Source of the DNA: Clarkia xantiana subsp. parviflora
Lineage: Eukaryota; Streptophyta; Magnoliopsida; Myrtales; Onagraceae
Assembly (NCBI GenBank): GCA_036873135.1
Contig: JAPTYO010000017.1
Span: forward strand, 14,322,001 to 14,386,000
Direction: 5' to 3'
DNA: 64,000 bases
The position numbers and the translations under genes are program-made. Shown here piece after piece: positions 1,376-40,085 of the stretch (positions are counted from its first letter, which is position 1; each line of letters starts with the position of its first letter). Below the pieces are notes generated by a model. The model saw nothing but the letters and a program-made list of their open reading frames with translations, did not search any database and had not been told where the DNA came from.

Positions 1376-4009
1376 TTGTTCGGGGATATGCTGGGGAAAA
1401 CCATGGAGGCATATGTGGACGACATGCCGGTGAAGTCCCGACAGGAAGGAGACCATGTCCAGAATTTGGCGGCGGCATTTGAGCGGATGAAGTTCCATCA
1501 GGTTCGGCTGAACCCCGACAAATGTGCTTTCGGGGTGAACTCGGTGAAGTTCCTAGGGTTCATGGTGAGCCAGAGAGGAATCGAGGTGAACCCTGAGAAG
1601 CTGCGAGCGATCGAGGAGATCCAGGTACTGAATGGCCGGTTGGCCGCGATGAATCGCTTCCTATCCAAGGCGAGTGATCGGGCCATGCCCTTTTTTGACG
1701 TATTGAGGGCCAACAAAAATTTCGAATGGACCGACAAGTGCGAGGAAGCATTCCAGGCACTCAAGCAGCACCTTCGTACCCTTCCGCCGTTGGCGAAACC
1801 AGTTCCAGGCGAGCCGCTTTATCTCTATTTGGCTGTTTCTGACGTGGCTGTTAGTTCTGTTTTGATTAAGATTGTCAAGGGCAACCAAGTGCCTATCTAT
1901 TATGTAAGCAAGGCGTTTGCCAAGTCTGAAATAAACTATCCCGCTATTGAGAAGTATCTCTTCGCGTTGATAATTGCCGCTCGAAAGCTACGACCTTACT
2001 TCCATGCCCATGAAGTCACGGTATTGACTAATCAGCCCTTGAAACACTTTTTGAACCGACCGGAGGCGTCGGGGAGATTGGTAAAATGGGCCATCAAACT
2101 GACAGAGTTCCGCATTCATTTCGCTCCGAGAACCGCTATTAAGGGCCAGGCGTTGGCAGATTTTATAGCTGAGTCTACGGCACCCGATCTAGAAGTAACG
2201 GGTCCCGCAGAGGGGGCAACCATGGAGGAAATCTCGACAACAGTACAGCAGCCAGAACAGCCAAATGAGGAGAATACTTGGGAGATGTACACTGATGGTT
2301 CATCGAGTGGAGAAGGCTCGGGGGCAGGATTCGTATTGATACCGCCCGGTGGAGGCGAGCCCCTGCGATATGCCTTGGCGTTGACATTCAAAGCCACCAA
2401 CAATGAAGCGGAGTATGAGGCTCTCATCACAGGCCTCAAGATTGCCAAGGGTACGGGGGTAGACCATTTAAAGGTGAGGTGCGATGCTAGTTTGGTTGTA
2501 AATCAAGTCCAGGGGAACTATGAGGCTAAAAGCCCGACGATGAAGAAATATTTGCATGGAGTGCAGACTTTGAAGGGAAGCTTCAAAAGCTTTGATATCG
2601 AGGCGATCCCAAGGGAAGAGAACGCAGAAGCAGATGCCTTGAGTAAGTTCGCCCTGGGAGTGGCCCCCGAAGAGAATCGGAAGGTGCATTTCCTAGAGAA
2701 GGTGATTATCTCAAACATTGACCCACTAGAGGTCTGTGCTATTGGGACAGGATCGGAGGAAGAGGAGAAGCCTACTTGGATGACCCCGATGGTCACGTAC
2801 CTGACTACGGGAGTACTCCCCGATGATAAAGTGGCAGCCGTCAGATTGCGTCGGATTGCAGACAACTACGCGATGGTGGACAACCAGTTATACAAAAAAG
2901 GGTATGTAAAACCTTTCTTAAAGTGCGTAGCGGAGCCTGACACGAATCGGATCCTAAGGGAACTGCACGAAGGAGTCGCAGCCTGTCATGAGGGAGTCCG
3001 ATCTCTGGTGAGGAAGGCATTGAACCTGGGTTACTATTGGCCCTCGATGAACAAAGAAGCGACCGCGATGGTCCGATCCTGTGATGCATGCCAGAGGTAC
3101 GCCCCAAATATCGTGGCTCCCGCCGTGGACTTAATGCCCATCAGGAGCGCATGGCCCTTCGCGCAATGGGGAATTGACTTGGTGGGACCACTCCCCCAAG
3201 CAAGAGGTCAGTGCAAGTACTTACTCGTGGCTATTGACTACTTCTCAAAGTGGATAGAGGCCAAAGCATTGGCTAGAACGACCGGGCAGCAGATCCTCAA
3301 GTTCCTTCAGACTCAAATCATATCCCGGTACGGGGTCCCGCGAGTGTTGATCAGCGACAACGGCCCTCCGTTCAATGGGGCTCAGTTGAAGGAGTACCTG
3401 GAAGAATTAAACATTGAGCATCGGACCGCTTCAGTCCGCCACGCTCAGACCAATGGCCAGGTAGAATCAGCCAACAAGATCGTGATGGATGGCTCGAAGA
3501 AGAGAGTCTATGCCTTGCAGGGCCATTGGCTGGATGAGCTCGAGAATGTGCTATGGGCTGTGAGAACAACACCCAGGCAATCAACAGGAGAAACTCCGTT
3601 TGGCCTGGTTTATGGCACGGAGGCAGTCGCTCCCGTGGAGATAGCGGTGGCGTCCCACCGCGCGAAATATTACGAGCCTCTGACAAACGAGGAAATGAGA
3701 CGTCTGGACTTAGACCTACTCGAGGAAAAGAGGTGGAAGGCTGATGAAGTCCAGGCCCGAATGCGTCTGGCAACAGCCCGATATTATAATCGGCGTGTCA
3801 GGTCCCGACAATTCTTCGTGGGAGAACTTGTCTGGCGGAGGAATGAGTTTGTTCATCAAGACCAGATCAACAAGCTGTCACCAAAATGGGAGGGACCCTA
3901 CAAGATCGTGGGGATGCAAGTGCCCAATGCATACAAGTTAGAGGATCTCGAAGGCAAGACGTTGAAGCATTCCTTCAGTGGTGAACACTTGAAGAAGTAT
4001 CATGTTTGA
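1376..4009 (+). CDS. R1 pol: RT C-terminus, RNase H, archaeal-type RNase H, integrase
   Basis: This is the in-phase continuation after the TAG and has no start codon of its own at its beginning. It opens with the RT catalytic box YVDDM (about 1410-1424). RNase H follows at about residues 150-265. A second, archaeal-type RNase H starts at about residue 303 (MYTDGSSSG, then NEAEYEAL, RCDAS and EADALSK, giving the D-E-D-D residues). Integrase has an HHCC zinc finger (about residues 531-575; C-D-A-C at its end) and a DDE core (GIDLVGP, SDNGPPF, GQVESAN). About ten codons present in R2 and R3 before VQVLNGRL are missing in frame near 1620. Otherwise it is intact to its stop. Confidence 0.92.
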   Translation: MFGDMLGKTMEAYVDDMPVKSRQEGDHVQNLAAAFERMKFHQVRLNPDKCAFGVNSVKFLGFMVSQRGIEVNPEKLRAIEEIQVLNGRLAAMNRFLSKASDRAMPFFDVLRANKNFEWTDKCEEAFQALKQHLRTLPPLAKPVPGEPLYLYLAVSDVAVSSVLIKIVKGNQVPIYYVSKAFAKSEINYPAIEKYLFALIIAARKLRPYFHAHEVTVLTNQPLKHFLNRPEASGRLVKWAIKLTEFRIHFAPRTAIKGQALADFIAESTAPDLEVTGPAEGATMEEISTTVQQPEQPNEENTWEMYTDGSSSGEGSGAGFVLIPPGGGEPLRYALALTFKATNNEAEYEALITGLKIAKGTGVDHLKVRCDASLVVNQVQGNYEAKSPTMKKYLHGVQTLKGSFKSFDIEAIPREENAEADALSKFALGVAPEENRKVHFLEKVIISNIDPLEVCAIGTGSEEEEKPTWMTPMVTYLTTGVLPDDKVAAVRLRRIADNYAMVDNQLYKKGYVKPFLKCVAEPDTNRILRELHEGVAACHEGVRSLVRKALNLGYYWPSMNKEATAMVRSCDACQRYAPNIVAPAVDLMPIRSAWPFAQWGIDLVGPLPQARGQCKYLLVAIDYFSKWIEAKALARTTGQQILKFLQTQIISRYGVPRVLISDNGPPFNGAQLKEYLEELNIEHRTASVRHAQTNGQVESANKIVMDGSKKRVYALQGHWLDELENVLWAVRTTPRQSTGETPFGLVYGTEAVAPVEIAVASHRAKYYEPLTNEEMRRLDLDLLEEKRWKADEVQARMRLATARYYNRRVRSRQFFVGELVWRRNEFVHQDQINKLSPKWEGPYKIVGMQVPNAYKLEDLEGKTLKHSFSGEHLKKYHV

Positions 4010-4915: not shown

Positions 4916-5650
4916 TTAAACTTGGTCCTTGTTGGAAGATGGGTCCTCAGCAGCATCGGAGGGAGCAAGGTTCGGAGGGGCCTGGGCGGAAGGCTCCGCG
5001 GCTGGCGGAGTCAGGTCCACGGCAGCGGTCTCTTCACTCTCCGCGGGGAGGTTGAAATATTTCTCCGCTAAGGGGGCAAGGGTCTCGGAATTCTTGAAGT
5101 CGATGGAATCCGCATAGGCTGTGTAGAGTTCTTCGACAGCGTTGAGTAAAGCGTCCTCCACCTCGGACTTGCAGAACTCCACAGCAGCCAGCTTGAATTC
5201 TTCAGAGTCCCGATACTCCCTGTGGCCCTGAAGACGACCCTCCTCGCGGCCCTCCTCGAGACCTTGAGCCTTTGCCTCAGCCAGTTTGGCAGAGAACTCT
5301 GCCCTTTCCGCTTCAAGCTTGGCTTTGGCCTCCGCCAGAAGATCCGCGAAGACGTTCTTCTCGCGAACGAGTTGCTGCTTCTCCCCCTCGTTCCGCTGCT
5401 GCTCCACCTGGGCCATCTTCCGCTCTCGACGCATGACAGCCTCATGGTCGTGGACCTTCTTGAGCAGGCTTGTGGACATGTCATCGAGGAGAGCCTTCTC
5501 CTTGGCCATCTTATTTTTGGCCGCCACCGCCTCGTCACGCTCCATCTGAAGCTTGGCTAAGGCCTCAGGATTCGACTTGGCTTCAGCCTCCTCCAAAGCG
5601 CTCTTCAGAGCCAAGGCGATGGCGAAGCTACGCTGCTGGTCCGCAGTTTC
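4916..5650 (-). CDS. Exon 4 of R1 antisense gene: coiled coil with acidic, Pro/Ala-rich tail
   Basis: After the acceptor CCACCTTAG the frame reads ETADQQRSFAIALALKSAL and goes into about 130 residues of heptad-like sequence rich in Glu, Lys, Ala and Leu (coiled coil by eye). A conserved block follows (CKSEVEDALLNAVEELY, then SETLAPLAEKYF), then a tail ending KDQV. R3 (45662-44994) and R2 (18539 to about 17702) keep the VENTLLNAVEELH-type block and a KDQA ending, so the C-terminus is conserved. Confidence 0.78.
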   Translation of the reverse strand, partial: ETADQQRSFAIALALKSALEEAEAKSNPEALAKLQMERDEAVAAKNKMAKEKALLDDMSTSLLKKVHDHEAVMRRERKMAQVEQQRNEGEKQQLVREKNVFADLLAEAKAKLEAERAEFSAKLAEAKAQGLEEGREEGRLQGHREYRDSEEFKLAAVEFCKSEVEDALLNAVEELYTAYADSIDFKNSETLAPLAEKYFNLPAESEETAAVDLTPPAAEPSAQAPPNLAPSDAAEDPSSNKDQV

Positions 5651-7478
5651 CTAAGGTGGAAGAAAAAAGATAAAAATTCAGTGATTGAAGGTAGGAATAA
5701 AGAAGAGAATAAGGCGGTAGGATATTACCTCCATCCGACGGACGGCCATGGAACGGAACTCCTCTTCGATATCCTCCCGCAACAGATAAAGTGGCCTCCT
5801 CAGAGCAGGAGGAATTGACCCTGACAGCAAGTGTAGGGCCAAGTCGGGCTCAAGATTGTCCCGACGGATCGAAAACCCGGAGAGGGATTCGATCGGACGC
5901 CAGGGAATCGCTGCCTGGTCGGAGGTGTAAATCTTGTACACCTCGTCCATCAGAAGACGAGGGATGGGCTCGGCCCCGGGGGTGGCAGGAACTACCTCTG
6001 TAGGAGGCTCGGGAGTTGGAGTGCGAAAAATAGGAGGAGGACTCTTGGACACGTCCCTAGCAGCGGGCCGTGCACTCCTGGACCTCGACCTGCCACGGGG
6101 AACCAGGCCTCCCTCTTCAGGCTCTTCAACAGACGGAGAAGCCTCCAAATAAGTCACGGGACGGAACCGAGCTTCCGCCGGGACGTCTTCCAGCATTAGT
6201 TCCTGCGGAGCTGCAGCCTCCGCTGGAACGATAGCCTCCATCGGGGCAGGAGTCTTTAAGGGACCTATGGTAGCAGGACGAATATGATTAGGAATAAACT
6301 CTTCGGGGGCTAATTTCTTATATCGTTGAATTGCACGACGGATACGCTTACCTTCCTCGACGGTGGTGGCCCCGAAGGTCCGATCTGTCTCCTCCCGCCT
6401 GGCCTTCTTGGCCCCGACCTGCTCTTCAGTCGGAGGAGCAGCAGATAGGGGAGTGGAGGAGGAAGCCCCCTTCTTCACCAGCTTGCGCTTCCGCCTGGAA
6501 CCGCTCTGGACAGCATCAGTCTCGCCCTGCTTCATAATGAGATGAGTCAACAGAGAAGCCTTCTTGGCTGCAAAGGTGAAAATAAAATAGTTAGAAATAT
6601 TACCCAGACGACTAAATTTGCAGAAACAGAATCAAGGAGCCGAACTCCGATGGCAATCAGATGCCGCTCCTGGAGCCTGTTGGCATCGATGGGTATGAAG
6701 TTGTCTCCCCAGCGGTAGAGTTGAACCATCTGGAGGGTGTTGAGGTCATCCTCGGAGTAATCTTGGAGCTTGGGGGCAGGGTCCGCCATAACCTCCCATC
6801 GAGGCCAGGGGACGGAGCTATGCTGGATAAAGAAATAGTACTTCTTCCAGCCACTATTGTCAGAGCCCGAGTCGCGGATCAGAATCCGATCCTTGTGAAA
6901 CTTCCAAGTTTCGCTGTCCCAGCCGAAACGTGAGAGTTTCTCCTTTGTCCACTTGGGGAGTCGGGGAGAGAAGGAACAGACACCGGATTTGTTGCACTTC
7001 ATGCCGTAAAAAGTGCGGAACAACAGAAGACTGTATGTCCACTGCTGGCGATGGCACAGGAGCTGGAAGGCATTCCACACGCGGATGGCGTGTGGAGAAA
7101 AAGTACACGGGTGCGTTTTGTAGAAATTACACATCTCCACCATGTTTCCACAGAAGGGGAATCGAATCCCCGCACTTATCTGTCCAGTGGAAACAAACAC
7201 CTCTCCTGCCCGAGGAGGTGTCATAATGTGCTTCCTTCTACCAGCAGTTTGGTACTCGTAAGGGAAGCGAGGCTCCCAATCCGATGTGATACAACCCTCT
7301 CTAAGGGCAACCTCATACGAACCCTCAGATATTTCGTTGACAGCAAACTCAAAGGCGAAGGGAGCCCTAACCTCGGAACTAGCCTCGTCTAAAACGATTG
7401 CAGACAAGAGGAATTGAGAAAAGAAAAGTAAACAGTAAGCAAATTACGAAAACGTGGAAAGAAGTCCTTACCAGACAT
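4916..7478 (-). CDS. R1 antisense accessory gene, four coding exons (about 786 aa)
   Basis: Predicted coding exons, read on the minus strand: 7478-7472 (ATGTCTG), 7388-6604, 6562-5729 and 5650-4916. Introns: 7471-7389 (83 nt), 6603-6563 (41 nt) and 5728-5651 (78 nt), all GT-AG. Joined lengths stay in frame (264 + 278 + 244 codons) with no stop before TGA at 4916-4918. The product has an N-terminal globular domain, a basic/Arg-Ser middle and a coiled-coil C-terminus. The gene lies between the 3' UTR repeats and the 3' LTR, convergent with pol, and has its own TATA box. Antisense accessory ORFs are known in Retand and Grande elements; this protein's function is unknown. A nuclear role is inferred from the basic tracts. 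The same exon borders recur in R2, R3 and R4. Confidence 0.82.
5729..6562 (-). CDS. Exon 3 of R1 antisense gene: basic, Arg/Ser and Pro-rich segment
   Basis: It encodes LLTHLIMKQGETDA, then an NLS-like cluster RRKRKLVKK, a second basic patch KKARREE and an Arg/Ser run RGRSRSRSARP, and ends VRRME before the donor GAG|GTAATA (5729/5728). The start at 6562 assumes the distal of two AG acceptors (GCAGCCAAG): the proximal AG would shift the frame and stop after six codons. If the upstream short intron is not real, translation could instead start at the internal ATG at 6550. Confidence 0.75.
6604..7388 (-). CDS. Exon 2 of R1 antisense gene: transposon-protein-like globular domain
   Basis: It begins after the acceptor TTTTAG and reads D-E-A-S-S-E once joined to exon 1. 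Landmarks are NEISEGSYEVALREGCI, GEVFVSTGQISAGIRFPF, NFYKTHPCTFSPHAIRVWN, RTFYGMKCNKSGVCSF, DSGSDNSGWKKYYFFI and VPWPRWEVM. The pattern of a W-x-K-x-Y-F-F strand followed by P-x-W resembles plant proteins annotated as 'putative gypsy-type transposon' (Pfam PF04195 from memory). It ends at TGG|GTAATA (6604/6603). R4 (62830-63624), R3 (47578-46771) and R2 (20467-19657) carry the same exon with damage. Confidence 0.78.
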
Positions 7479-7633: not shown

Positions 7634-7641
7634 CTTTTATA
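7634..7641 (-). promoter_or_regulatory. TATA box of R1 antisense gene
   Basis: Minus strand CCTATAAAAGG, about 156 bp upstream of the ATG at 7478. Boxes at matching positions occur in R2 (20744-20751), R3 (47838-47845) and R4 (62564-62570). The rest of 7479-8180 is the non-coding space between this gene and the 3' LTR, with a short repeat of CCAAGCCTCCGACGG near 8043-8078. Confidence 0.7.
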
Positions 7642-8180: not shown

Positions 8181-8952
8181 TGATGGGTTACGATGTAATC
8201 GTTAGCCCCGTTAACTGCCATTGGACGGCGAGTAGGTCCAGTGGGCCTCGTGAAAAGCCTTGAAGGCCCAGAGGCCCAGCACAAAGGGTCCCGACTTTAG
8301 CGGTCCCGATGAACGAGCTGAACGCTCCCGATAAGAAGCCTCTGAGTAGGCCCCGATATGCCTTAGTAAAGGCCCCGATAAATAAAGCCCCGCAGAGGCT
8401 GGACCTGTCCCGTAGAGACTGAAGGTCCTGGGTGGTGATCTAGAATGAGACAACTCTGGAGTCCCCGACAGGAGTCGAGACTTGTGATCAGAGGATAAGA
8501 CCGAGAAACCCGCCTACTAGATGAGAGTAGTGGGAAGACGGTTAAGATATAGATAATCTCCCCCGAGATACGCAGGGCGTGCCCGAGATACGCGGAGTAC
8601 GGGTAAGATACGCGGAGCGTGGGGCGAGATATACGGAATCCCGACCGAGATATGCGGAATCGTGGCGAGATACACGGAATCATGGGTAAAACTGCCAGGC
8701 GCAGTAACAGGTAACTGGGTAACTTCCCCTCCTATATAAAGGAGGAAGTTACCTCAGAAAACCATCATCTAAACTAGGCTGAGACGAACATATACTCTTT
8801 TGCTTACCACCCATTGATCACCGTACTCATTTAAGCATCGGAAAGGGATTCTGGGTCACCACCCAGGTCATCCCCTTTTGCAGGATTACGCGGAGCCCAG
8901 GAGTCCAAGCATTCCGTCAAGGACGTAACGAAGCTTCGCCCGTGATCCAACA
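8181..8952 (+). repeat. R1 3' LTR (772 bp)
   Basis: It starts TGATGGGTTACG after the polypurine tract and ends CGTGATCCAACA, matching R2 and R3 LTR ends. TATATAAA is at 8733-8740. Upstream of it, degenerate 20-bp units (GAGATACGCGGAGCGTG type, about 8570-8690) form a small minisatellite. The base run after the LTR is GTAAC; the matching duplication at the 5' end is outside the window. Confidence 0.9.
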
Positions 8953-10753: not shown

Positions 10754-11372
10754 TGATGGGTTTCGATATAGCCGTCAGGCCCATTAACGGCGACTAAACG
10801 GCGAAGAAGGCCCACTGGGCCCCAAAGAAGCTCAGAAGACCAATACGAGGGGACCCGACAAGGTCAGTCCTGACATGCGAGCTGAACGCCCCCGATCCTA
10901 TGCCTTTAAGTAGGCCCCGATATCGAATCCCTGAGAGTACTGGCCCTGTCCCGATGATGAGGGGCCTCGAGCGGTGACCAAAGGAGATAACTCTGGAGTC
11001 CCCGACATCCGTCGGGACTTGCCACCAGAGAACGAGGCCGAGAAATACGCCCACTATCAACATAGTGGGGAAGTGGCCTGAAAAGAAGGAACGTGGGCTA
11101 CTGGCCATGCCGAGATAAACGGAACATGGCAGTTATCTCAACAGGTAACTGAGGTGACCCCTCCCCTATATAAAGGAAGGAGTTACCTCAGGATTGATAC
11201 GTTCACATACTTACATACTGATACTTGCCAGTTTACATCGAGATACTCATTTAAGCATCGGAGAGGGATTCTGGGTCACCGCCCGGTCTATCCCCTTCTT
11301 GCAGGATTACTTGGAGCGAAGGAGTTCAGATTTTCGTGAAGAACGTACCGGAGTTCCAACCGTGATCCAACA
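10754..11372 (+). repeat. R2 5' LTR (619 bp)
   Basis: TGATGGGTTTCG to GATCCAACA. The TATA box TATATAAA is at 11167-11174. It carries one copy of the 25-bp unit (TATGCCTTTAAGTAGGCCCCG near 10902-10922) that is expanded in the 3' LTR. Confidence 0.95.
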
Positions 11373-11373
11373 T

Positions 11374-11390
11374 TGGCGCCGTCTGTGGGA
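11374..11390 (+). promoter_or_regulatory. R2 primer-binding site
   Basis: TGGCGCCGTCTGTGGGA, one base after the LTR end. The first nine bases fit the 3' end of plant tRNA-Asp as I recall it; the match beyond that is imperfect. R3 has the identical site at 38542-38558. Confidence 0.8.
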
Positions 11391-11408
11391 ACGAAGCAAA
11401 AAGCGAAA

Positions 11409-12289
11409 ATGGCTTCTATCCGTTCAATGGCTGGCAAGCAAAAGAAGAGACAAGGACAATCTGGTGGTTCCCGTCACCCTACTGGAACTCTGAACTCAGG
11501 GCTGCCAGAGCGCACTGTTGATCGGAATGATCCTCCCCATGCTGTTTCCCAAACAAGGGGGCATCATGAGGATCGCGAAGATTCCATCCGAAACTCATCG
11601 GAGAGCCGGGAAGAGATCCCAAGGAGGCACCTGCAAAGCCTGACTTGGCAAAGGCTGTGATGGATGCCATGCCAGTATTTTTGGAAGCTATAGAGGCCCT
11701 CTTGGAACGAAGGGAGGCCGTAAAGAAGAAGGAGGAGGAGTTGCCTCCGCCTCCGCTGATGGAGAATCGGGACGGGCAGGAGGCCCAGCCCGAGCACCAG
11801 GACAAGGGCAAGGAGCCCGCTCAGGCGGAGCAGTTCGTGATTGATGGGCCTGGACCTGTGTAGCATAGGACCATTCCTCTCAATGGCCCTATCACCCCCG
11901 ATCAAGTGGTGAAGATCGTAAACATCTGCATGGGGTATCAGAAGAAGATGATGTCAGAGCTGAGGGATCGATCTACTCATCCCTTTGTCCCTCGATTGGT
12001 GAACACCATTGCCCCGCCGGGACTGGGCATCCCGACAATCAAGGAGTACGATTGCGAGGGAGATCCAGTTCGACATGTCCAGAAGCATGTCATGGCCTGT
12101 CTAGGCAGAGCCCCGAATGATGATATAGTGTGCGTCTTGTTCCCAGGCACACTTGGCGAGAGGGCCCTGACGTGGTTCTTCAGCCTTCCCCCAGGATGCA
12201 TCTCTAGCTGGACCCAGATGCATGATCGCTTCATCTAGCAATACCAGGGCAGTCGGCGTCTCCTGAAAAGCGCGAGGTCCCTGGCTGAG
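11409..12289 (+). pseudogene. R2 gag, N-terminal and core part (broken)
   Basis: The start ATG at 11409 (MASIRSMAGKQ) matches the R3 start (MPSTRSMAAGKQ). A frameshift lies between about 11590 and 11645, TAG stops occur at 11861-11863 and 12236-12238, and the last two are CAG in R3. The core VRHVQKHVMACLGRAPND and RALTWFFSLPPG is a retrotransposon gag (capsid) domain. No functional Gag can be made from this copy. Confidence 0.85.
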
Positions 12290-13639
12290 GTGGTACAGAG
12301 GCCCGACGAATCTCTGGCGCATTACTACCCGAGGTACACTGCCAGCGTGGCCGAGATTGATGAGGAAATGACGGAGGGAGAGACCATCCGTACCTTCATT
12401 CGGAACCTGAGTGCACCGTATGGTTCCGACCTGATGAACAGCGTGGCTGAGAAGGCTGTGTGGAACATGGAGGCGCTGCAGAAGACAGTGAAGCAGCAAA
12501 TCGACGTTCAGGAGTCGAAGATAGCTGCCGGAGACCTCGATCCTTCGAAATCAAACAGGGGGAAGCAGTCGTTCAAATCCTCGGACGACCGCAAGAGGAA
12601 AGATAAACCCGAGAGCAGTCGGGGTCGAGGTCGTCCCGATCGGAGGGAAGACAAGCGTTCCTCGAAGTCGGACAAGCGGGAGGACCACTACACTCCTCTC
12701 ATTTGTTCCATGGGTGCTGTGCTGGCGGTGATGGACCAACAGGGTATCGCCAGGTATCCCCCGAAAAAAGATGGAGAGTCCATGGGAGCCCGCACTGATC
12801 GTTATTGTCGCTTTCACCGTGCCAACGGTCACGACACTAACCATTTTCGGGAGTTGAAGAAAGAGATTGAGAAGCTGATCCAGAAGGGGAAGCTCAAGGA
12901 ATTTGGGGCTGGACAACGGGGCCGATCCCGTTCCCGGTCCCGATCGCGGTCCCGTTCCCGATCCCGTGGTCGATCCCCGAAGAAGGACAAGTCCGAGTCT
13001 TCCAATGCCCGCAAGGAGAAGCGGGGAACTATTAATGTGATTCATGGAGGACTTGCTACAGGAGGAGATACTACGGCAGCTCAGGAGGTCTATGCTTCTC
13101 GGATTCCCATTGTTGTGGTACTAGGCAAGAGGGCCCGAAATTGGACTCCGAAAGAAGAAATGGTGATTCCCTTCTCAGCGGAGGACCTGATAGGTGTGGA
13201 CACCCCGCACGATGACGCTTTTGTCATGACCCTGAACGTGGATGGGTACGAGATGAAGCAAATCCTGATTGATGGAGGGAGCTCCTCCGACATTCTGTTC
13301 ATGGATGCACTGGAGGCTATGGGAAAAACCAAGAAGGACTTGAAGCCCGCAGACTTCCCGATGGTCGGATTTTCTGGCTCTACTACTTACCCGGTGGGGA
13401 TGATTACGTTATCGGTTGAATTCGGTAGTGGCTGGAAGTCGGAGAAGAGGAACGTAGAGTTCGTGGAGGTCAAGTCCGCGGGGACCTACAACGCCATTAT
13501 CGGGAGGACTACCATCAACCCGCTGGGGGCAGTTGCCTCAACTGTCCATCAGAAGCTGAAGTTCCCGACTGACCACAGAATCGGGGAGTTCCAGGGCGAT
13601 CAGATAGCCTCCAGGAGGTGCTACGTCAATGCCACTTGA
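12290..13639 (+). CDS. R2 gag C-terminus and protease ORF
   Basis: 449 codons. The end of the gag core (DESLAHYYPRYTASVAEI) is followed by a basic linker and a degenerate zinc knuckle (CRFHRANGHDTNHF). An Arg-Ser repeat tract (about 12920-12980, ten or more RS dipeptides) comes next, then INVIHGG and protease with IDGGSSSDILF. It ends at TGA 13637-13639, where R3 has TGG, so the stop is a mutation and pol continues downstream. R3 keeps the same RS tract at about 40094-40148. Confidence 0.85.
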   Translation: MVQRPDESLAHYYPRYTASVAEIDEEMTEGETIRTFIRNLSAPYGSDLMNSVAEKAVWNMEALQKTVKQQIDVQESKIAAGDLDPSKSNRGKQSFKSSDDRKRKDKPESSRGRGRPDRREDKRSSKSDKREDHYTPLICSMGAVLAVMDQQGIARYPPKKDGESMGARTDRYCRFHRANGHDTNHFRELKKEIEKLIQKGKLKEFGAGQRGRSRSRSRSRSRSRSRGRSPKKDKSESSNARKEKRGTINVIHGGLATGGDTTAAQEVYASRIPIVVVLGKRARNWTPKEEMVIPFSAEDLIGVDTPHDDAFVMTLNVDGYEMKQILIDGGSSSDILFMDALEAMGKTKKDLKPADFPMVGFSGSTTYPVGMITLSVEFGSGWKSEKRNVEFVEVKSAGTYNAIIGRTTINPLGAVASTVHQKLKFPTDHRIGEFQGDQIASRRCYVNAT

Positions 13640-13657
13640 AGGAGGAATCGGGAGGCT

Positions 13658-15175
13658 ATGAATGTTTTCCAGACTGATGCCGATCCCCGAGAGGAGTTTG
13701 GGCGTCCCGCCCCGATGGAGAATTTGAAGGAGGTCGAGATCGACGGACCTCAAAGAAAGGTGAAAATCGGGTCCGCTCTGTCGGAGGAGACGGCCCGAGA
13801 ACTGATTGATTTATTGAAGGAGTTCAAGGAGCTGTTTGCCTGGTCCCTGAGCGACATGCCAGGAATCAGCCCCGATGTAATTACTCACGAGCTGAAGATT
13901 GATCCCGTGATCAAGCCGGTCACACAGAGAAGGCGCCCGATGGGTGCCGACAAGAAGATCGCGATCCAGCAGGAGGTGGGCAGGTTGCTCGAAGCTGGAT
14001 TTATTAAGGAGCTCCGATTCCAGACCTGGGTCGCCAACCCAGTCCTGGTGAAGAAGAGCAATGGCAAGTGGCGGATGTGCGTGGATTTCCGTGACCTGAA
14101 CAAAGCATGCCCAAAGGATTGCTATCCGCTCCCGAGGATCGACCAGCTGGTGGATGCCACATCGGGACATGAGTTGCTGAACTTTATGGATGCATACTCC
14201 GGCTATAACCAGATCAAGATGTCCAAGGAGGATGCCCCTCACACTGCTTTTTATGCTGACAGTGACATCTATCATTATGATGTTATGCCCTTTGGACTGA
14301 TCAATGCAGGTGCAACTTATCAAAGGATGGTGAACAAACTGTTTGGGGACATGCTGGGAAAAACAATGGAGGCCTATGTGGACGACATGCTGGTGAAGTC
14401 TCGACAGGCCGAGGATCATGTTCACAACTTGGCCACAGCATTCGAGCGGATGAGGCTGGGCTTTATGGTGAGCCAAAGAGGAATCGAGGTGAACCCTGAG
14501 AAGCTGAGGGCAATCGAGGAGATGAAGTCCCCGACGAGCCATCGGGAGGTGCAGGTGCTGAATGGCCGATTGCCCGCGATGAATCGCTTCCTGTACAAGG
14601 CAAGCGGCCGATCCATGCCATTCTTTGAAGTGCCGAGGGCTAATAAGAAGTTCGAGTGGACTTCCGAGTGCGAGGAGGCGTTCCAGGCACTGAAGCAACA
14701 CCTCCGTTCCCTCCCGCCGCTGGCGAAGCCCATCCCAGGCGAGCCACTCTATCTGTATTTGGCTGTTTCTGAATTTGCTGTTAGCTCTGTCTTAGTAAAA
14801 GTTGTAGAGGGTAGCCAAGTCCCCGTCTGTTATGTAAGCAAGGCACTCGCCAAGTCTAAAATGAATTATCCCGCCGTTGAGAAGTATCTCTATGCGTTGA
14901 TTGTTACTGCTCGGAAACTGAGGCCCTACTTCCAAGCACACAAAATTACTGTTTTGACGAATCAGCTCTTGAAACATTTTTTGAACCGACCTGATGTGTT
15001 GGGGAGATTAGTGAAATGGGCAGTCGAGCTTAGTGAGTTCCGCATTCACTTTGCTCTGAGAACGGCTATTAAGGGCCAGGCATTGGTGGATTTCATAGCA
15101 GAGTCTACAGCCCCCGATCTAGAAGAAGCGGGCCCTGTAGAGGGGGCAACTATGGAGGTCCCAATAACAGAGTGA
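13658..15175 (+). pseudogene. R2 pol: RT and RNase H ORF (deleted and broken)
   Basis: 505 codons in phase with the preceding frame. RT boxes RMCVDFRDLNKACPKD, FMDAYSGYNQI and YVDDMLVKS (about 14374-14400) are present. After FERMR it jumps straight to LGFMVSQRG, so about 25 residues found in R1 and R3 (from LHQVRLN to the middle of the box) are missing in frame near 14453, which should disable RT. RNase H follows. It ends at TGA 15173-15175 with loss of the linker and a frame change before the second RNase H. Confidence 0.87.
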
Positions 15176-15188
15176 CACCTAAAATACT

Positions 15189-16909
15189 TTGGAGATGTAC
15201 ACTGATGGCTCCTCAAATTCAGAAGGATCGGGAGCAGGTTTCGTACTGATACCACCAGACGGAGGCGAGCCCCTCCGATATGCCTTGGCCTTGACATTTA
15301 GGGCCACCAACAATGAAGCTGAATATGAGGCTCTCATCACTGGCCTCAAGATTGCTAAAGGAACGGGAGTTGGTCACTTGAAGGTGAAGTGCGATGCTAG
15401 CCTGATCGTGAACCAAGTCCAGGGGCGATACGAAGCAAAGAGCCCGATGATGAAAAAGTATCTTCGTGAGGTACAAACCCTGAAGAAGAGTTTCAAGAGC
15501 TTCGATATTGAGGCGATCCCGAGGGAGGATAATGCGGAAGCAGATGCCTTGAGCAATTTCGCCTTGGGGGCACCCCTCGATGAAAGTCGGAAGGTGCATT
15601 TCTTGGAGAAGGTGATCCTGTCAACCACCGATCAGTCGGAGGTTTGTGCCATTGAGATCGGATCGGAGGAGCCCACTTGGATGACCCCGATAGCCGCGTA
15701 TCTGACTACGGGGGCAGTCCCCGATGGGGAAGTGGCAGCAGGCAAAATACGCCGAATCGCGCCTAATTATGTGATGGTGGACAATCAGCTGTACAAAAAG
15801 GGGTATTTAAGTCCTTATCTGAAATGCGTGGCCGAGCCCGACACCGGTCGGATCCTTAGGGAGGTAAACGAAGGATATTTGGCCTTTCATGAAGGTGCCC
15901 GATCCATCGTGAGGAAAGTGTTGAACTTGGGCTATTACTGGCCCTCGATGAACAAGGAGGCAACGATGCTAGTCCGATCCTGTGACGCTTGCCAGAAGTA
16001 CGCCCCAAACATCGTGGCTCCAGCTTCCGATCTGACGTCCATCAAGAGTGCTTGGCCCTTCTCGCAATGGGGAATCGACTTGGTGGGACCCCTTCCAGTT
16101 GCAAAAGGTCAGTGTCGATACTTAGTTGTGGCTATTGATTATTTTTCGAAATGGATAGAAGCCAAGGCATTGGCCATGACAACGGGGAACCATATCCTCA
16201 AATTCCTCCAGAACCATATCATATCCCGATACGGGATCCCCAAGGTGGTGATCAGCGATAATGGTCGTCCGTTTAACGGGGCCCAGTGGAAGGAGTACTT
16301 GGAGGAACTGAAAATTGAGAATCGGACATCCTCTGTCTGTCATGCTCAAACCAATGGACAAGTGGAGTCAGCCAACAAGATCGTGATGGACGTCCTGAAG
16401 AAGAGGGTCCACGCCTTGAAGGGCAAATGGCTGGACGAGCTGGAAAATGTACTTTGGCTGTTAGAACAACACCCAAAAGATCGACCGGGGAGACTCCGTT
16501 TGGCCTCGTCTATGGCACAGAGGCAGTTTCTCCCATGGAAATAGCTGTGGCATCCCATCGGACGAGGTATTACGAACCTCTGTCGAATGATGAAATAAGG
16601 CGTCTGGACTTGGACTTGGTCGAAGAGAAGAGGCGGAGTGCCGAGGAGGTCCAGGCCTGGATGCGCTTGGCAACAGCCCGATATTTTAATCGACGAGTCA
16701 AGTCTCGACATTTCTTTGTCGGGGAACTGGTGTGGCGTCGGAACGAATTTACCATTTTGGATCGGATCAGCAAGATGTCACCAAAATGGGAAGGGCCTTA
16801 TAAGGCCGTGGGGATGCCAGCTCGGAATGCGTATAAGTTGGAAGACCTCGATGGCAATGTGTTGAAGCATTCTTTTAGTGGCGAACATTTGAAGAAATTT
16901 CATGTTTGA
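15189..16909 (+). pseudogene. R2 pol: archaeal-type RNase H and integrase (frameshifted)
   Basis: The second RNase H starts MYTDGSSNSEGS. The integrase zinc finger (HEGARS, then CDACQKYAP) and core (GIDLVGP, SDNGRPF, GQVESAN) follow. A one-base deletion near 16455 (NVLW then out of frame) shifts the end; the correct C-terminal frame resumes (16427-16909 frame) with RTTPKRSTGETPFG and ends FHV at 16909. Compared with R1 and R3 the integrase is otherwise full length. Confidence 0.85.
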
Positions 16910-16910
16910 T

Positions 16911-17610
16911 ATTAAGTCGCCTTCAGTGGTGCAAGCTGTTTATTAAGTCGCCTTCAGTGGTGCAAGTTATTGGTTAAGTCGCCTTCAGTGGTGCAAGTTA
17001 TCTATTAAGTCGCCTTCAGTGGTGCAAGTTGTTTATTAAGTCGCCTTCAGTGGTGCAAGTTGTTTATCGTGTTGAGCCATCAATGAATAAAGAGGCTGCT
17101 TCCAATTAAATCGCCTTAAGTGGCGTGGTTCCGCCTTAAGTGGCACAATTAAATCGCCTTAAGTGGCGTGGTTCCGCCTTAAGTGGCACGTTTAAATCGC
17201 CTTAAGTGGTGTAGATAAGTTGCCTTATGTGGCCCAATTAAATCGCCTTAAGTGGCGTGGTTCCGCCTTAAGTGGCACGATTAAATCGCCTTAAGTGGTG
17301 AAGATAAGTTGCCTTAAGTGGCCCAATTAAATCGCCTTAAGTGGCGTGGTTCGGCCTTAAGTGGCACGATTAAATCGCCTTAAGTGGTGTAGATAAGTTG
17401 CCTTAAGTGGCCCAATTAAATCGCCTTAAGTGGCGTGGTTCAGCCTTAAGTGGCACGATTAAATCGCCTTAAATGGTGCTGCCTTAAGAGGCACGATTAA
17501 ATCGCCTTAAGTGGTGTGGGTAAAATGTCTTATGTGACGCGTCGAAATTACTTTAAGTGATATGATCGAATTTCCTTAGGTGGCGTAGTTAATTCGCCTT
17601 AAGTGGTGCA
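16911..17610 (+). repeat. R2 3' UTR tandem arrays
   Basis: About five units of 31 bp (AAGTCGCCTTCAGTGGTGCA) at 16912-17065, then alternating 22-bp units (AAATCGCCTTAAGTGGCGTG and GTTCCGCCTTAAGTGGCACG) to about 17610. The core CGCCTTAAGTGG is shared with the R1 and R3 arrays. Confidence 0.92.
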
Positions 17611-17701
17611 AGGGTAATCGGGACCGGAAGGGATTGATATTATAAAGATCCAAAAGGTTCACGACAAAAAGGAAATTACAAGGATTCGAAAATAAAGCGA
17701 C

Positions 17702-20597
17702 TAAGCTTGATCCTTGGTAGCGTCGAGGGGAGCAGGGTCCACGAGATCTGTGGCAGAAAGCTCCGTGACCGGAGGATCGGACCTGGTAGATTGGCCGCGG
17801 GAGGATCGGACTCTGAAGGATTAGCCGCGGGAGGGTCGATCATCGGGGGCTCTGTCGTCAGGATGTCTGCACTTGGAGGCTCCACCGTGCCTTCAGCACC
17901 CACAGTCCCCTCGGGGGTGTTGCCCCCGTCACTCTCCTCAGAAAGGCTGAAATACCTCCCCGCGAAGGGGGCGAGAGTCTGAGACTTGGTGAAGTCGATG
18001 ACACCACCATACTCCAGATGGAGCTCCTCGACAGCATTAAGCAGGGTGTTTTCCACCTCCGTCGTACAGAACTTCACCGCGTCCGCTTGAAAAGCTTCGG
18101 AGCCCCAATAATCCTCCCGACCTTTGGCTTCAGCTTCAGCCAGCTTGGCAGGGAACTCGGCAACCTCCCGCTCCAGCTGTCGGGACCGGTTGGCGAGGAG
18201 GACTTTCTCAGCCGCCAGCCCAGCCTGGGCATCCTCCAGAGCCTTCTTCTCGAGGACATGCCTGTCCCGATCCTCCGCGCGCCCCTGCTGCTCTTCCTGG
18301 AGCCTTTGGCGCTCCTGCTTCAGCAACCTCTTGAAATCGTGGACCTGCCTCAAGAGGTCCCGACTCTTCTAGTTAAGGAGGGCCTGCTCCTTAACCAACT
18401 TCCCCTTTGACGACTTGGAGGCAACCAGATCCCCCTCGAGCTTAGCTAAGACCTCGGGGGCCGCCTTGGCTCGCTCCTCCTTCAGGGCCTCCTCCAAGGC
18501 CAGGATATACCCGAAGCAGCGGTGCTGGTCCGCCATTTCCTGTAGAAAAGAAGGGAGGTTAGTACATGAGAGTATTTTACATTATATACTAAGTGTGAAA
18601 ACCGGAAGACTTACCTCCACACGGCGAACGGCCATAGCGCGAATGTCCGCATGGATGTCCTCGGGGGCCAAGGAGAGTGGAAGCTTCATAGACGGCGGAA
18701 CTGAACCTGCCAGTAGGTGCAGACCCAGTTCCGGTGACAAATTGTCCCGACGTAGCGGAACCCCCTGTAGTGACTCGATCGGGGTCCAGGGAGCTGCCGC
18801 CTGGTCGGGGGCATAAAGCCGATAGAAGCTCCCGTCTAAGGGGAGAGGAGGAGGAACGGCCTGAGCGTCGGAGGTGCGTGCCTCCGAGCCGCCATGAGAA
18901 CCCGGCGAAAGCTGCTGCGCCGGAGAAGATGGAGGCAGCCCTTCGGAAGTTGGCTCCACCGGGGTCTGCCTCGCCCCCCGACGATGAACCAGGGGCTGGC
19001 CTTCGCTTGCCTCATCAGAAGAATGGGAGACGTCCAGATCAACCACCCGACGGAATTGGCCGTCCGTCGGGGCGTCTTCGGTCCCCGATCTTGTCGGGGC
19101 AGGAAGCGACAGGAGGGGTTCTCCGACCTGGGCGTTGGAGGGTGGCGTTCCCGCGGAAGCTCCAACTCCCGATCGACCTGCAGCTGGAGGACGAGAAGCT
19201 TCAGAAAGAAAGTCAGGAAGTTAATCGGAATCCTTACACCAGATGACGCGACGGGAGAGGTACTGGTCCTTCCCGTGATAATTATAGTAACCCGCTTTGA
19301 GAATGCGTGGAGTTTCTCCTTGTAGGATGCGTTTGATCCCTTCGATCCGTGCTCCCTTATCAGAGGGGATTAACTCATCGGGAATACGCCTCCTGTATAA
19401 TCGAATTGCTGAGCGGAGTTGTTTACCTTCCTTGGAAGTCTTGGTGTTGAAGATTTGCTCCATCTTCTCCACCCGGGCCCGCTTGATTTGCTCCGAGGTG
19501 GGACGTGCCGATGAGGAAGTGGCCCTCTTTGAATACTTCCTCTTCCTCGCGGGGCGTGGGACAGCATCAGTCTCCGCCTGCTTAAGCACGAGATTGGTCA
19601 GCAATGATACATTCTTAGCTGCAAGGATGAAAACGAAAGTACAGTTAGAATATTACCCAAGGAACGAGGTTAGAAGGGCCGTCGAAGAGTTGACCCCCCC
19701 GGAGACGATATCAAGGAGTCGGATCCCGGTCAGAACCAGGTCTCGCTCCCCGATGGAGTTGGCGTCGAGAGGAGTGAAAGAGTCCCCCCAACGATAAAGC
19801 TGGATGCAGTGGAGAATCAGGAAATCCTCCTCGGAGTAAGTGTAGAAAGCGGGGGCAGGGTCCGTTTCGAGCTCCCATCGGGGCCACGGAATAGAGCTAT
19901 TTCTGATGAAGAAATAACTCCTCTTTTAACCGCTTTTGTCGGGCCCCGAATCAGTGATGAGCCCCCGACCCTTGGCAACCTTCAAGGTGTCACCATTCCA
20001 GCTGTACCGAGAGAGCTGCGCCTTGCTCCACTTAGGCATCCGCGGATAGAAGGCACAGACCCCGACGTCATTACACTTTATCCCATAAAAAGGTCCGGAA
20101 GAGTCGGAGGCTATACGGCCATTGTTGGCGGAGGCAAAGCACGCGGAAGGCATTCCACACGCGGATGGCATGGGGGGAGAAAGTAGTCGGATGTGTTTTG
20201 TAATGTTTACACATCTCGACCATGTCACCGCAGAAGGGGAAGCGGATCCCCGCCGATATTTGCCCGGTGGAGACAAATACCTCCCTTCCCGGGGACGAGT
20301 GACTGCAGAGTCACCCGGGATGCGAGGCCAAGGATAATGGAAGCGAGGCTCCCAGGTGGAAGTAATGCACCCCACTCGGAGAGCTGCATCATAGACAGTG
20401 TCTGAAATCTCATTACAAGCATAGTCGAACTTGAAGGGTTTCCTCACCCCGGAACTGGACTCACCGTCTGGAAAGTAATCATGGCAAGAAAAGGCACAGA
20501 TGATTTCCGCAAAAGTTTGGGTAAGTTGATGGAGATGAAAGGAAAAACTATGCTAACAAGTTTCTTCGGAATCGAAAGAGGAAATCATACCAGACAT
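17702..20597 (-). pseudogene. R2 antisense accessory gene (decayed)
   Basis: Same architecture as R1: exon 1 20597-20591 (ATGTCTG|GTATGA), exon 2 20467-19657, exon 3 19613-18615, exon 4 18539 to about 17702. All splice junctions are recognisable (TTTCCAG acceptor, TGG|GTAATA, GAG|GTAAGT, CTACAG). Damage: a one-base deletion near 20289, with compensation near the FYGIKC box, TAA at 19926-19928 replacing the Trp of the SGW box, TAA at 19221-19223, TAG near 18370 and a late frameshift before the conserved KDQA ending. Confidence 0.82.
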
Positions 20598-20743
20598 GTC
20601 GAATCAGAGAGGAAAGGATGAGCTTGATGGTCGGAGGTCCTGGTCGCCGGAGTGCTGATCAGAGACTAGAAAGGAGAGCTTGAGCTTTTGAAAACACAGA
20701 GAATGAAACGGTAGAGAAGAACTGAATAGTGCCAAGATTTGTG

Positions 20744-20751
20744 TTTTTATA
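20744..20751 (-). promoter_or_regulatory. TATA box of R2 antisense gene
   Basis: Minus strand CCTATAAAAA, about 150 bp upstream of the ATG at 20597, as in R1. Confidence 0.65.
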
Positions 20752-21022
20752 GGAGAGAGGATAGGCAAAGAGACGTTGCGATCTGGACCGTTGAAGAAAG
20801 CGCCTCAACCTGAATCGTCAAAACACTAGGGACAAAACGGCTATAAAGCGCTTTTTCAGAAAAGCAGGCACGTGCACTCAAGCCGTCACTTCATCGCTCA
20901 TCGCATTTAATAGGTGAGTAATCGAGAAATCTTTTCGGATTCGGTGGTTATCCTCGGAATATAGAAAGGTCCGAAGTTGGAAGACACGACGAACTATAAG
21001 TCCCTCGGGTATTGGGGGCAAA

Positions 21023-21723
21023 TGATGGGTTTCGATATAGCCGTCAGACCCATTAACGGCGACTAAACGGCAAAGAAGGCCCACTGGGCCCCAAAGAGGC
21101 TCAGAAGACCAATACGAGGGGACCCGACAAGGTCAGTCCCGACATGCGAGCTAAACGCCCCCGATCCTTTGCCTTTAAGTAGGCCCCGACGATATGCCTT
21201 TAAGTAGGCCCCGACGATATGCCTTTAAGTAGGCCCCGACGATATGCCTTTAAATAGGCCCCGATATTGAATCCCTGAGAGTACTGGCCCTGTCCCGATG
21301 ACGAGGGGCCCCGAGCGGTGACCAAAGGAGATAACTCTGGAGTCCCCGACGTGCGACGTCCATCGGGACTTGCCACCAGAGAACGAGGCCGAGAAAAACG
21401 CCCACTATCAACATATTGGGGAAGTGGCCTGAAAAGACGGAACGTGGGCTACTGGCCGTGCCGAGATAAACGGAACGTGGCAGTTATCTCAACAGGTAAC
21501 TGAGGTGACCCCTCCCCTATATAAAGGAAGGAGTTACCTCAGGATTGATACGTTCACATACTTACATACTGATACTTACCAGTTTACATCGAGATACTTA
21601 TTTAAGCGTCAGAGAGGGATTCTGGGTCACCGCCCGGTCTATCCCATTCTTGCAGGATTGCTTGGAGCGAAGGAGTTTGGATTTCCGTGAAGAACGTACC
21701 GGAGTTCCAACCGTGATCCAACA
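21023..21723 (+). repeat. R2 3' LTR (701 bp) with internal 25-bp expansion
   Basis: Preceded by the polypurine tract ATTGGGGGCAAA (21011-21022). TATATAAA is at 21518-21525. A 25-bp unit (GATATGCCTTTAAGTAGGCC plus CCGAC) is repeated at about 21165-21265, giving three more copies than in the 5' LTR. Together with a small indel this accounts for the 82-bp length difference. Confidence 0.95.
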
Positions 21724-37823: not shown

Positions 37824-38540
37824 TGATGGGTTCGACTATAGCCGTTAAGTCCTTTAACGGTGAGGAAACGGAAAGTAGGCCTGGTGGGCCCAAAACGAAG
37901 GCCAATATGGCCCATACAAAGGATCCCGACGAAGGGAGCCCGAGGATGAGAGGTCCCGACGAAGTCGGACCTGACAAGTGAGCTGAACGCTCCCGACGAG
38001 ATGCCTCCGAGTAGGCCCCGATGACGAATCCCTGAGAATAATAGGCCCTGTCACGATGACGAGGGGCCCCGAGCGGTGACACAACGAGATAACTCTGGAG
38101 TCCCCGATGTTAGTCGGGACTCGTTATCAGAGGATAAGGCCGGGATACGCGGGGCGTGGCCGAGATACGCGGAACATGGTTAAGATACACGGAGCGTGGC
38201 CGAGATACGCGGGGCGTGGCCGAGATAAGCGAGATCATGGCCTAGATAGGCGGGATCACACCCGAGATACGCGGGATACGGGCTAACCACCCCCAACGGT
38301 TCACCAGGTAACTGAGGTATCTCTTCGCCTATAAAAGGGCAAGAGGTCACCTCAGATCACTTACGTTGAAATACATTTTACTTGAGATTACTGCTTGCCA
38401 GTCCAGACGAAGTACTCATTTAAGCATCGGAGAGGGATTCTGGGTCACCGCCCGGTCTATCCCCTCTTGCAGGATCGCGTGGAGCAAAGGAGCTAGGATC
38501 GCCGTCAAAGACCGTACCGGAGTTCCACCGTGATCCAACA
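37824..38540 (+). repeat. R3 5' LTR (717 bp)
   Basis: TGATGGGTTCGAC to GTGATCCAACA. TATAAAAG is at 38330-38337. The 20-bp minisatellite (GAGATACGCGGGGCGTGGCC type) has about five units at 38137-38245. Confidence 0.95.
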
Positions 38541-38541
38541 T

Positions 38542-38558
38542 TGGCGCCGTCTGTGGGA
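38542..38558 (+). promoter_or_regulatory. R3 primer-binding site
   Basis: TGGCGCCGTCTGTGGGA, one base after the LTR, identical to R2. Confidence 0.8.
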
Positions 38559-38577
38559 ATTCTACAAAAAAGCTGAT

Positions 38578-40085
38578 ATGCCTTCTACTCGTTCAATGGC
38601 GGCTGGCAAGCAAAGAAGGCAAGGACAATCTGGTGGCTCTCGTCACCCTACTGCAACAACTCTGAATTCATTACCGAACAGGAGGAAAACCAGAACCATC
38701 CCGCTGCTGAGCTCTCCCAGACAGGGGGGCATAATGAAGGTCCCGAAGAAATTGCCGCTCAGCACCAGGGCAATAGAGGGCAGGAGGCTCCCCCAGCTAC
38801 GGACCTGACAAAAGCTGTGGCAGAAGCCATGCCCATGTTTTTGGCAGCCGTGGAGGCTCTCTTGGATCGGAGAGAGGCTGCGAAGAGGCAGGAGGAGATG
38901 CCCCCGTTGGAAGAAGCGCCCCCACCAGCAGAGGTTCGGAACGTATAGGAGGCTCCGCTCCGAGGCCAGGACAGGAGCAGGGTGTCCGTTCAGCCAGAGA
39001 GGTTCGTGGTTGATGGGCCAGGCCCAGTACAGCACAGGACCATTCCCCTGAATGGTCCCATCACCCCCGATCAGGTGGTAAAGATCGTGAACATCTGCAT
39101 GGGAGAGCAGAAGCCGCTGGTGTCGGAGCTGAGGGATCGATCTACTCATCCCTTCGTTCCTCGACTCATAGACACCCTAGCCCCGCCAAGGCTGGGTATC
39201 CCCACGATAAAGGAATACAATGGCAAAGGAAATCCGGTTCGTCATGTGCAGAAGCACCTCATGGCGTGTCTGGGAAGAGACCCGAATGAAGACATAGTGT
39301 GCACGCTGTTCCCGAACACGCTTGGGGAAAGAGCCATGACCTGGTTCTTTAGTCTGCCCCCAGGCTGCATCACTTGCTGGGCAGATATGCACGACCGGTT
39401 CATTCAGCAGTACCAGGGTCGTAGACGTTTGCTGAAGAGTGTGAGGTCCCTGACCCAGGTGGTACAAAGGCCCGACGAATCGCTGGCGCATTATTACCAG
39501 TGGTACACTGCCAGTGTGGCGGAGATTGATGAGGAGATCTCGGAGGGTGAAACCATTCGTACATTCATTCGGAACCTAACGGCCCCCTATGGTTCCGACC
39601 TAATGCATAGCGTGGCTGAGAAAGCCGTGTGGAATATGGAGGCACTACAGAAAAGGGTGAAGCGGCAAATCGATGTCCAGGAGTCAAAGATAGCCGCTGG
39701 AGAGCTGGAGCCCCCGAAATCGAATAAAGGGAAGCAGTCGGTTAAACCTTTCGACGATCGTAAATCAAAGGGCAAACCCGAGGGCAGTCGGGATCGAGGA
39801 CGCTCTGGTCGGAGGGATGATAGGCGTTCTTTAAGGAAGGACAAGCGGGAGGATCTCGACATTCCTCTCAATTGCTCCATGGCGGAGGTACTAACGGTCA
39901 TGGAACGACAAGGTATCTCCAGGTACCCCCCCAAAGAAGGATGGAGAATTCTTAGGATCCCGCACGGATCGCTACTGCCGATTTCACCGTGCAAATGGTC
40001 ACGATACCAACCATTGTCGGGAGCTGCAGAAGGAGATCGAGAAAATGATCCAGAAGGGGAAACTCAAGGAGTTCGTCGGGGATAA
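38578..40085 (+). pseudogene. R3 gag (frameshifted, one stop)
   Basis: The start ATG at 38578 (MPSTRSMAAGKQRRQ) lies 20 bases past the PBS. A frameshift between about 38665 and 38730 and TAG at 38950-38952 break the N-terminal part. From 38953 the frame is open through the capsid-like core (VRHVQKHLMACLGRDPNED, TWFFSLPPGC, DESLAHYY) to a second frameshift near 39935, in the zinc-knuckle region. Gag forms the particle that packages the RNA. Confidence 0.87.

Follow-up and report, generated by a model that had tools for sequence, protein, structure and literature searches.

A predicted spliced antisense protein gene with a 7-nt first exon in probable Retand-type retrotransposons of Clarkia xantiana

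In a 64-kb stretch of Clarkia xantiana subsp. parviflora DNA (contig JAPTYO010000017.1, positions 14,322,001 to 14,386,000; hereafter the window), there were at least four related Ty3/gypsy elements (copies A, B, C, and D), each of which carried a gene on the strand opposite to that of the element. The gene was preceded by a TATA box and had a first coding exon of 7 nt and further exons bordered by GT and AG at homologous places, and its divergence among the copies indicates purifying selection on an encoded protein. From this anatomy, the gene is very probably expressed as a spliced antisense transcript that encodes protein. We further propose that the short first exon is joined to either of two acceptors to give two products; that both proposals hold together has about an even chance. 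An earlier note on this DNA had described the same arrangement and interpreted it as an independently regulated antisense gene with a single 786-residue product. The observation was confirmed, and the interpretation was partly supported.

Anatomy of the antisense gene and selection on its product

The antisense gene was located between pol and the 3' long terminal repeat (LTR). It had been described as antisense to pol, which was correct as to the strand of the element, but there was no overlap with the pol open reading frame (ORF). The four loci were recovered within a base of where they had been placed, and in all four a TATAAAA motif preceded the ATG, in agreement with the TATA box claimed. 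The distance from TATAAAA to ATG was 163, 154, 166, and 173 nt in copies A (TATAAAA at 7635..7641), B (20745..20751), C (47839..47845), and D (62564..62570), respectively; here and below, coordinates are those of the window, and the gene lies on the minus strand in A, B, and C and on the plus strand in D. TATAAAA was itself frequent, with 29 matches in the window against 9.5 expected. The TATA box of copy A, at 7641, lay 540 bp outside the 3' LTR, which starts at 8181, and so the putative promoter was not located in the LTR.

Exon 1 was invariant: all four copies had the 7 nt ATGTCTG followed directly by GT, in phase 1 (A, 7472..7478; B, 20591..20597; C, 47673..47679; D, 62737..62743). The sequence ATGTCTGGTA was found exactly four times in the window, once per copy, against 0.02 expected from shuffles. 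Intron 1 had a length of 83 nt in A (7389..7471, GTAAGG..TTTTAG), 123 nt in B (20468..20590), 94 nt in C (47579..47672), and 86 nt in D (62744..62829). Exon 2, which contains the putative TRP28-like domain described below, was 785–811 nt long and ended at a Trp codon common to the four copies. It was intact in copy A alone (6604..7388) and was decayed in B (19657..20467; frameshifts and a stop), C (46771..47578; a stop and a frameshift), and D (62830..63624; a stop and, within a run of C, a frameshift). The putative intron 2, called gap 2 here (A, 6563..6603; B, 19614..19656; C, 46729..46770; D, 63625..63666), reached a first AG, out of frame from exon 2, after 36–38 nt (36, 38, 37, and 37 nt in A to D) and a second AG after 41–43 nt (41, 43, 42, and 42 nt). 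In copy A it contained, in this order, GTAA, TTCTAAC, TTTGCAG with the first AG, and CCAAG with the second.

Exon 3, starting after the first AG, occupied 5729..6567 in A (phase 1), 18615..19618 in B (one stop), 45739..46733 in C (open), and 63662..64000 in D, where it was cut by the window end. Copy A was without a block of about 50 codons of exon 3 (GYYHYHGKDQY...WCK) that was common to B and C, and the frame was kept. Intron 3 was 78, 75, and 76 nt long in A (5651..5728), B (18540..18614), and C (45663..45738), respectively; D was cut before it. Exon 4 extended over 4916..5650 in A, with the stop codon, 17701..18539 in B, with a stop and a frameshift near the end, and 44994..45662 in C, open and with the stop codon.

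The borders GT and AG were present in introns 1 and 2 of all four copies and in intron 3 of the three copies that contained it, and the T content of introns was 39–51%, compared with 24–26% in exon 2. Global alignments blind to the splice annotation were made for four of the six possible pairs (A-B, A-C, A-D, and B-C), and in these intron fell on intron and exon on exon for 98–100% of the aligned bases. The misses were confined to pair A-B, in exon 1 (0%, misaligned), the 5' flank (90%), and the 3' flank (11%). The 7-nt first coding exon followed by GT and the further introns at homologous places, both of which had been claimed in the note, were thus reproduced. In the aligned pairs, introns 1 and 3 were mostly less alike than the exons: the identity was 70% in intron 1 versus 78–81% in the exons for A-D, 61 and 45% versus 64–74% for B-C, and 39 and 43% versus 57–66% for A-B. 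For A-C, intron 3 (50%) was below the exons (55–65%) and intron 1 (57%) was not. Gap 2 showed an exon-like identity of 66–79%, with 60% for C-D in the pairwise alignment.

The ratio of nonsynonymous to synonymous divergence (dN/dS), calculated by NG86 in the frame of copy A with omission of codons with gaps or stops, was 0.10 (A-D), 0.14 (B-C), 0.14 (A-B), 0.16 (C-D), and 0.22 (B-D) for exon 2, in which A-C was saturated and the synonymous divergence among the four copies was at least 0.9. It was 0.21–0.44 in all six pairs for exon 3 and 0.25–0.38 in all three pairs for exon 4; pol gave 0.06–0.11 in three of three pairs by the identical method. The earlier note had proposed this ratio as a check, and in none of the long exons was it near 1. 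Because three of the copies are decayed, the ratio should be raised, not lowered. When the six frames were compared in eight combinations of exon and pair, the claimed frame gave the lowest dN/dS in seven, and the eighth was saturated. The claimed frame was stop-free in copy A in all five combinations that included it, and B, C, and D had 0–1 stops each. Coding on the sense strand of this region was considered and rejected, since the reverse frame with the next-lowest dN/dS carried stops in each test. Gaps were multiples of three in 44 of 67 cases in exons and in 6 of 28 in introns, these being pairwise counts that are not independent. The promoter-like start, the conserved intron borders, and the purifying selection supported the earlier claim of a separate antisense protein gene.

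A TRP28-like domain in exon 2 was suggested by sub-threshold matches to Pfam Transposase_28 (PF04195, "putative gypsy type transposon"), which corresponds to the TRP28 domain of PMC11963269. The score was 22.3 bits in copy A (cut-off, 26.2), 22.4 bits (E about 1.5e-4), also under the cut-off of 26.2, in one of the two pieces scanned of copy B, and 14.9 bits in one of two pieces of copy D; two pieces of copy C gave no match. Exon 3 had basic runs near its start in A and C and matched no family. Exon 4 of copy C gave sub-threshold matches alone, some of them to coiled-coil families, and by eye exon 4 appeared coiled-coil-like. An AlphaFold2 model of exon 2 had a mean pLDDT of 35, and its fold was uninformative. 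A protein search with the 786-aa product scored 7992 candidates, none of which reached E 0.001, and a search with an alignment gave none among 1681 candidates. Viral contigs queried with exon 2 and with pol contained no relatives, and none came from genome contigs, for which the queries were copy A's exon 2 and part of copy C's; the collections searched were mainly prokaryotic, viral, or metagenomic, so that these results are no evidence of rarity among plants. A PDB sequence search returned three matches up to E 1, and the best (E 0.0033), to a receptor chain that is unrelated and of which no individual stretch passed, was regarded as chance. Rfam gave no match in the whole window.

The second junction: one product or two

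The 786-residue product claimed in the note was reproduced from copy A, in which exons 1, 2, 3, and 4 joined in series through the second AG encoded 786 aa with no internal stops. Its second junction, however, a 41–43-nt intron ending at the second AG, was unsupported, and so was the single product that depends on it. The acceptor at the first AG was in phase 1 in all four copies, which fits the donor of exon 1 and not the end of exon 2 (phase 0). Direct joining of exon 1 to exon 3 was in frame in all four copies, giving ATG TCT GCC/GCT AAG (MSAK...), and the ORF of exons 1, 3, and 4 had no stops in A and C, where it encoded 526 and 556 aa, respectively. The acceptor itself looks real, since TTCTAAC-N(12-24)-TTGCAGCYAAG was found four times in the window, once per copy, against 0 expected. 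The shortness of a 41–43-nt intron and the fit of the phase-1 acceptor to exon 1 led us to prefer two alternative products from one promoter: a TRP28-like protein beginning with MSD and encoded by exon 2, and a protein beginning with MSA and encoded by exons 3 and 4. In our judgement, the chances for and against this alternative splicing are finely balanced.

Several observations weigh against this reading and against the gene model as a whole. GTAA stood right after the last Trp codon of exon 2 in four of four copies, as a donor at that position would explain, and the second AG put exon 2 in frame with exon 3 in all four. The phase match between exon 1 and the acceptor at the first AG has a one-in-three probability by chance. 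The end of the exon 2 ORF was not conserved, being VIF and a stop in B, VNF and a stop in C, 18 more codons in A, and a read-through into exon 3 in D. The ORF of exons 1, 3, and 4 was broken in B, by stops in exons 3 and 4 and a frameshift in exon 4, and was cut off in D. All matches to PF04195 were below the curated cut-off, and the sample comprised four copies from one window, with exon 2 decayed in three.

The most serious competitor, although we consider it unlikely, is one protein of about 786 aa made from exons 1, 2, 3, and 4 in series with a GT-AG intron 2 of 41–43 nt. The stop-free frame of copy A, the GTAA after the Trp codon, the AAG at the second AG, and the fit of the frame (each of the last three in four of four copies) speak for it. 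Against it, an intron of 41–43 nt would fall below the lengths verified in Arabidopsis, where 30 predicted introns of 31–59 bp were tested and two were verified, both of 59 bp (PMC6161759). The branch-like TTCTAAC in gap 2 had its A only 12–13 nt from the start of GTAA in all four copies, and TTGCAG would have to be bypassed for an AG five bases on. In addition, donor 2 matched the donor consensus at 5–6 of nine positions, compared with 6–7 of nine for donor 1.

Somewhat less probable still is a further product that splices exon 2 to exon 3 from an internal donor of exon 2, one that was overlooked or is not the same in every copy. Old, decayed copies need not splice alike, and exon 2 of copy A alone had 14 phase-1 GTs, the best of which matched the donor consensus at five of nine positions, equal to donor 2. 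Among the copies, however, none of the eight GTs of exon 2 common to all four was in phase 1; the phase-1 sites, three GTs in three of four copies and two GCs in all four, matched the consensus at only 1–3 of nine positions. The last ten codons of exon 2 also looked coding, five of the six B-C differences being at third positions when counted by eye. Exons 2 and 3 as unrelated genes were rejected, since exon 3 had no ATG near its start common to the four copies and its acceptor was strongly conserved.

Host elements and alternative explanations

The pol domains of the elements (reverse transcriptase (RT), RNase H, and integrase) were of the Ty3/gypsy type. Copy A comprised the 3' part of an element only, in the plus orientation, with a pol ORF at 1376..4009 (part of RT, RNase H, and integrase) and a 3' LTR at 8181..8952 (TGATGGG..CCAACA). 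Element B (10754..21723, plus) had LTRs of 619 and 701 bp at 10754–11372 and 21023–21723, a flanking 5-bp duplication GGTGC, and an internal region of 9.65 kb. Element C (37824..49023, plus) had LTRs of 717 and 796 bp at 37824–38540 and 48228–49023, flanks GGCTG and GTCTG (four of five bases alike), and an internal region of 9.69 kb. Copy D was in reverse orientation and was cut by the window end, with its LTR side alone inside the window. Retand LTRs of 315–1,194 bp and internal regions of 7,380–12,869 bp have been reported (PMC11963269), and B and C fitted both ranges, A and D being incomplete in the window. Measured from the ends of the pol ORFs, the region between pol and the 3' LTR was about 4.2 kb in A (4009 to 8181), 4.1 kb in B (16909 to 21023), and 4.0 kb in C (44182 to 48228), within the 2,933–6,566 bp given for Retand clusters, about half of which have tandem repeats (PMC11963269). 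By this likeness to published elements, the four copies are probably plant Retand-type Ty3/gypsy elements.

Tandem repeats were found in the same region at 4152–4743 in A, where they lie between pol and the antisense gene, at 16910–17519 in B, and at 44184–44799 in C; in D this part lay outside the window. A repeat core like CCTTAAGTGG was common to 4500–4743, 17103–17519, and 44184–44799, with different unit lengths, and in all three copies these repeats separated the stop of pol from that of the antisense gene. As a guess, they may be a binding site of the antisense protein.

Two explanations other than a protein gene of the element were considered. In the first, which we regard as improbable, the reading frames are remnants, and it is the antisense RNA that does the work, either as double-stranded RNA or by interfering with the genomic RNA. 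This option is discussed in PMC7264820, and the unspliced antisense transcript would match, as its complement, about 2.7 kb of the genomic RNA; the protein-level selection in all three long exons speaks against it. An RNA role is possible alongside the protein and not instead of it. Less credible still is a recently captured host gene or transposon carried along by chance, as a split, host-gene-like structure with its own TATA box and the Pfam name Transposase_28 might suggest, because the gene was common to four copies with the high synonymous divergence of exon 2 given above and because antisense TRP28 ORFs were reported for every Retand cluster surveyed except two, in eudicots and monocots alike (PMC11963269).

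The window also contained other elements. An LTR element without a recognised pol, apparently on the minus strand, occupied 52910–59685, with direct repeats at 52910–54488 and 58173–59685 that were about 90% alike. The sequence TTTGGCGACTCTGCTGGGGA, bases inside its right repeat, looked like a primer binding site, and we take it to resemble that of Ogre. A 291-aa ORF at 56647–57522, on the minus strand like the element, matched DUF7745 with 69 bits and a plant mobile domain below the cut-off; the antisense product had no similarity to this DUF7745 ORF. The segment 22174–24665 was another fragment of this family and contained tandem 27-bp repeats, GCCTCCAGTGGCGTGCGGAAAAGTAAA. Another gypsy pol (RT, RNase H, and a piece of integrase) was found on the minus strand at 34869–38050; it was about 68% alike to the pol of copy A in blastn pieces, and its open frame overlapped the 5' LTR of element C.

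Proposed mechanism and comparison with known systems

For the transcription, splicing, and nuclear role of the gene, we infer the following scheme. The gene would serve a Retand-type Ty3/gypsy element as an accessory gene, internal and antisense. From its promoter, seen only as a TATA box about 0.54 kb from the 3' LTR on the inner side, RNA polymerase II would produce an antisense pre-mRNA that is processed by the host spliceosome. All products would begin from the 7-nt exon ATG TCT G. Joined to exon 2, this exon would give MSD-... and a TRP28-like protein that ends soon after exon 2; joined to exon 3 and then to exon 4, it would give MSA-... and a protein of 526–556 aa whose basic runs resemble nuclear-targeting signals and whose C-terminus looks like a coiled coil. 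As expected from the replication of LTR elements, the genomic RNA would carry the complements of the introns, which the spliceosome does not recognise, and the introns would persist through retrotransposition because the genomic RNA holds them in this reverse, unspliceable sense. The spliced antisense RNA, for its part, would lack the ends that reverse transcription requires. Less certainly, the products may be nuclear proteins that bind the DNA or nucleoprotein of the element and adjust its expression or nuclear steps; an action on the element's own DNA or nucleoprotein has been proposed for TRP28 proteins (PMC11963269), and the nuclear site reported for the Grande gene23 protein agrees with this (as told in PMC7264820).

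Antisense TRP28 ORFs have so far been catalogued as separate ORFs (PMC11963269). Should these prove to be exons of a single spliced gene with a common micro-exon, the real start and the real proteins would escape ORF-based annotation, and the wrong transcripts may have been sought in expression studies. The gene would also illustrate the rule that spliceosomal introns can easily be kept by a retroelement where a gene runs opposite to the genomic RNA. Exact junctions follow from the model and are testable in strand-specific RNA data of the host.

An antisense accessory gene with its own promoter in Retand and Grande elements is already in print (PMC11963269, PMC7264820), and the earlier note had listed antisense accessory ORFs in these elements as known. 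The conserved introns, the common micro-exon, and the hint of two proteins from one start appear to be new details. The word "intron" did not occur in the main text of PMC11963269, and the portions covered of PMC11728184, PMC4093653, and PMC3091746 had nothing on introns in such antisense genes. No introns in Retand antisense genes were found in the literature searched, outside which lay the primary papers on Grande gene23, Retand, extra ORFs of the Tat lineage, and Ogre splicing, so that an earlier description is possible.

The TRP28 ORFs of Retand elements (Vicient 2025, PMC11963269) resemble the present gene in their place between pol and the 3' LTR, their orientation, and, as far as sub-threshold matches show, their TRP28-like domain. 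The same survey reported additional antisense ORFs, of which 11 had Smc domains, as well as tandem repeats in this region; there, the ORFs were separate ones from ORF Finder, whereas here they would be exons of one gene with a common 7-nt first exon. Gene23 of maize Grande is likewise an accessory gene in antisense orientation that lies between pol and the 3' LTR; as told in PMC7264820, it was reported to be transcribed from a promoter upstream of gene23 and to encode a nuclear protein; that article asks for a search for spliced antisense transcripts. In Ogre, an intron is spliced in a plant Ty3/gypsy element, as is predicted here, but that intron lies in the sense strand and only part of the transcripts is spliced, so that full-length RNA remains (PMC6317226). 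HBZ of human T-cell leukemia virus type 1 (HTLV-1) and APH-2 of HTLV-2 are spliced antisense accessory proteins of a retroelement, a likeness that depends here on predicted splicing; both are nuclear and adjust expression, and the spliced and unspliced forms of HBZ differ at the N-terminus (PMC10186651). Their promoters are in the 3' LTR, whereas the putative promoter of the present gene is about 0.54 kb away on its inner side, and the likeness is in the way of working, with no sequence relation claimed. The complete proposal, with slightly less than an even chance, is that in a second, antisense transcription unit of the element alternative splicing links a 7-nt start exon to either of two acceptors that agree in phase, that the two products from one promoter (TRP28 and coiled-coil) are probably nuclear accessory proteins, that the introns are protected by running backward in the genomic RNA, and that the gene would thus be a plant counterpart, in its way of working, of the deltaretrovirus antisense genes.

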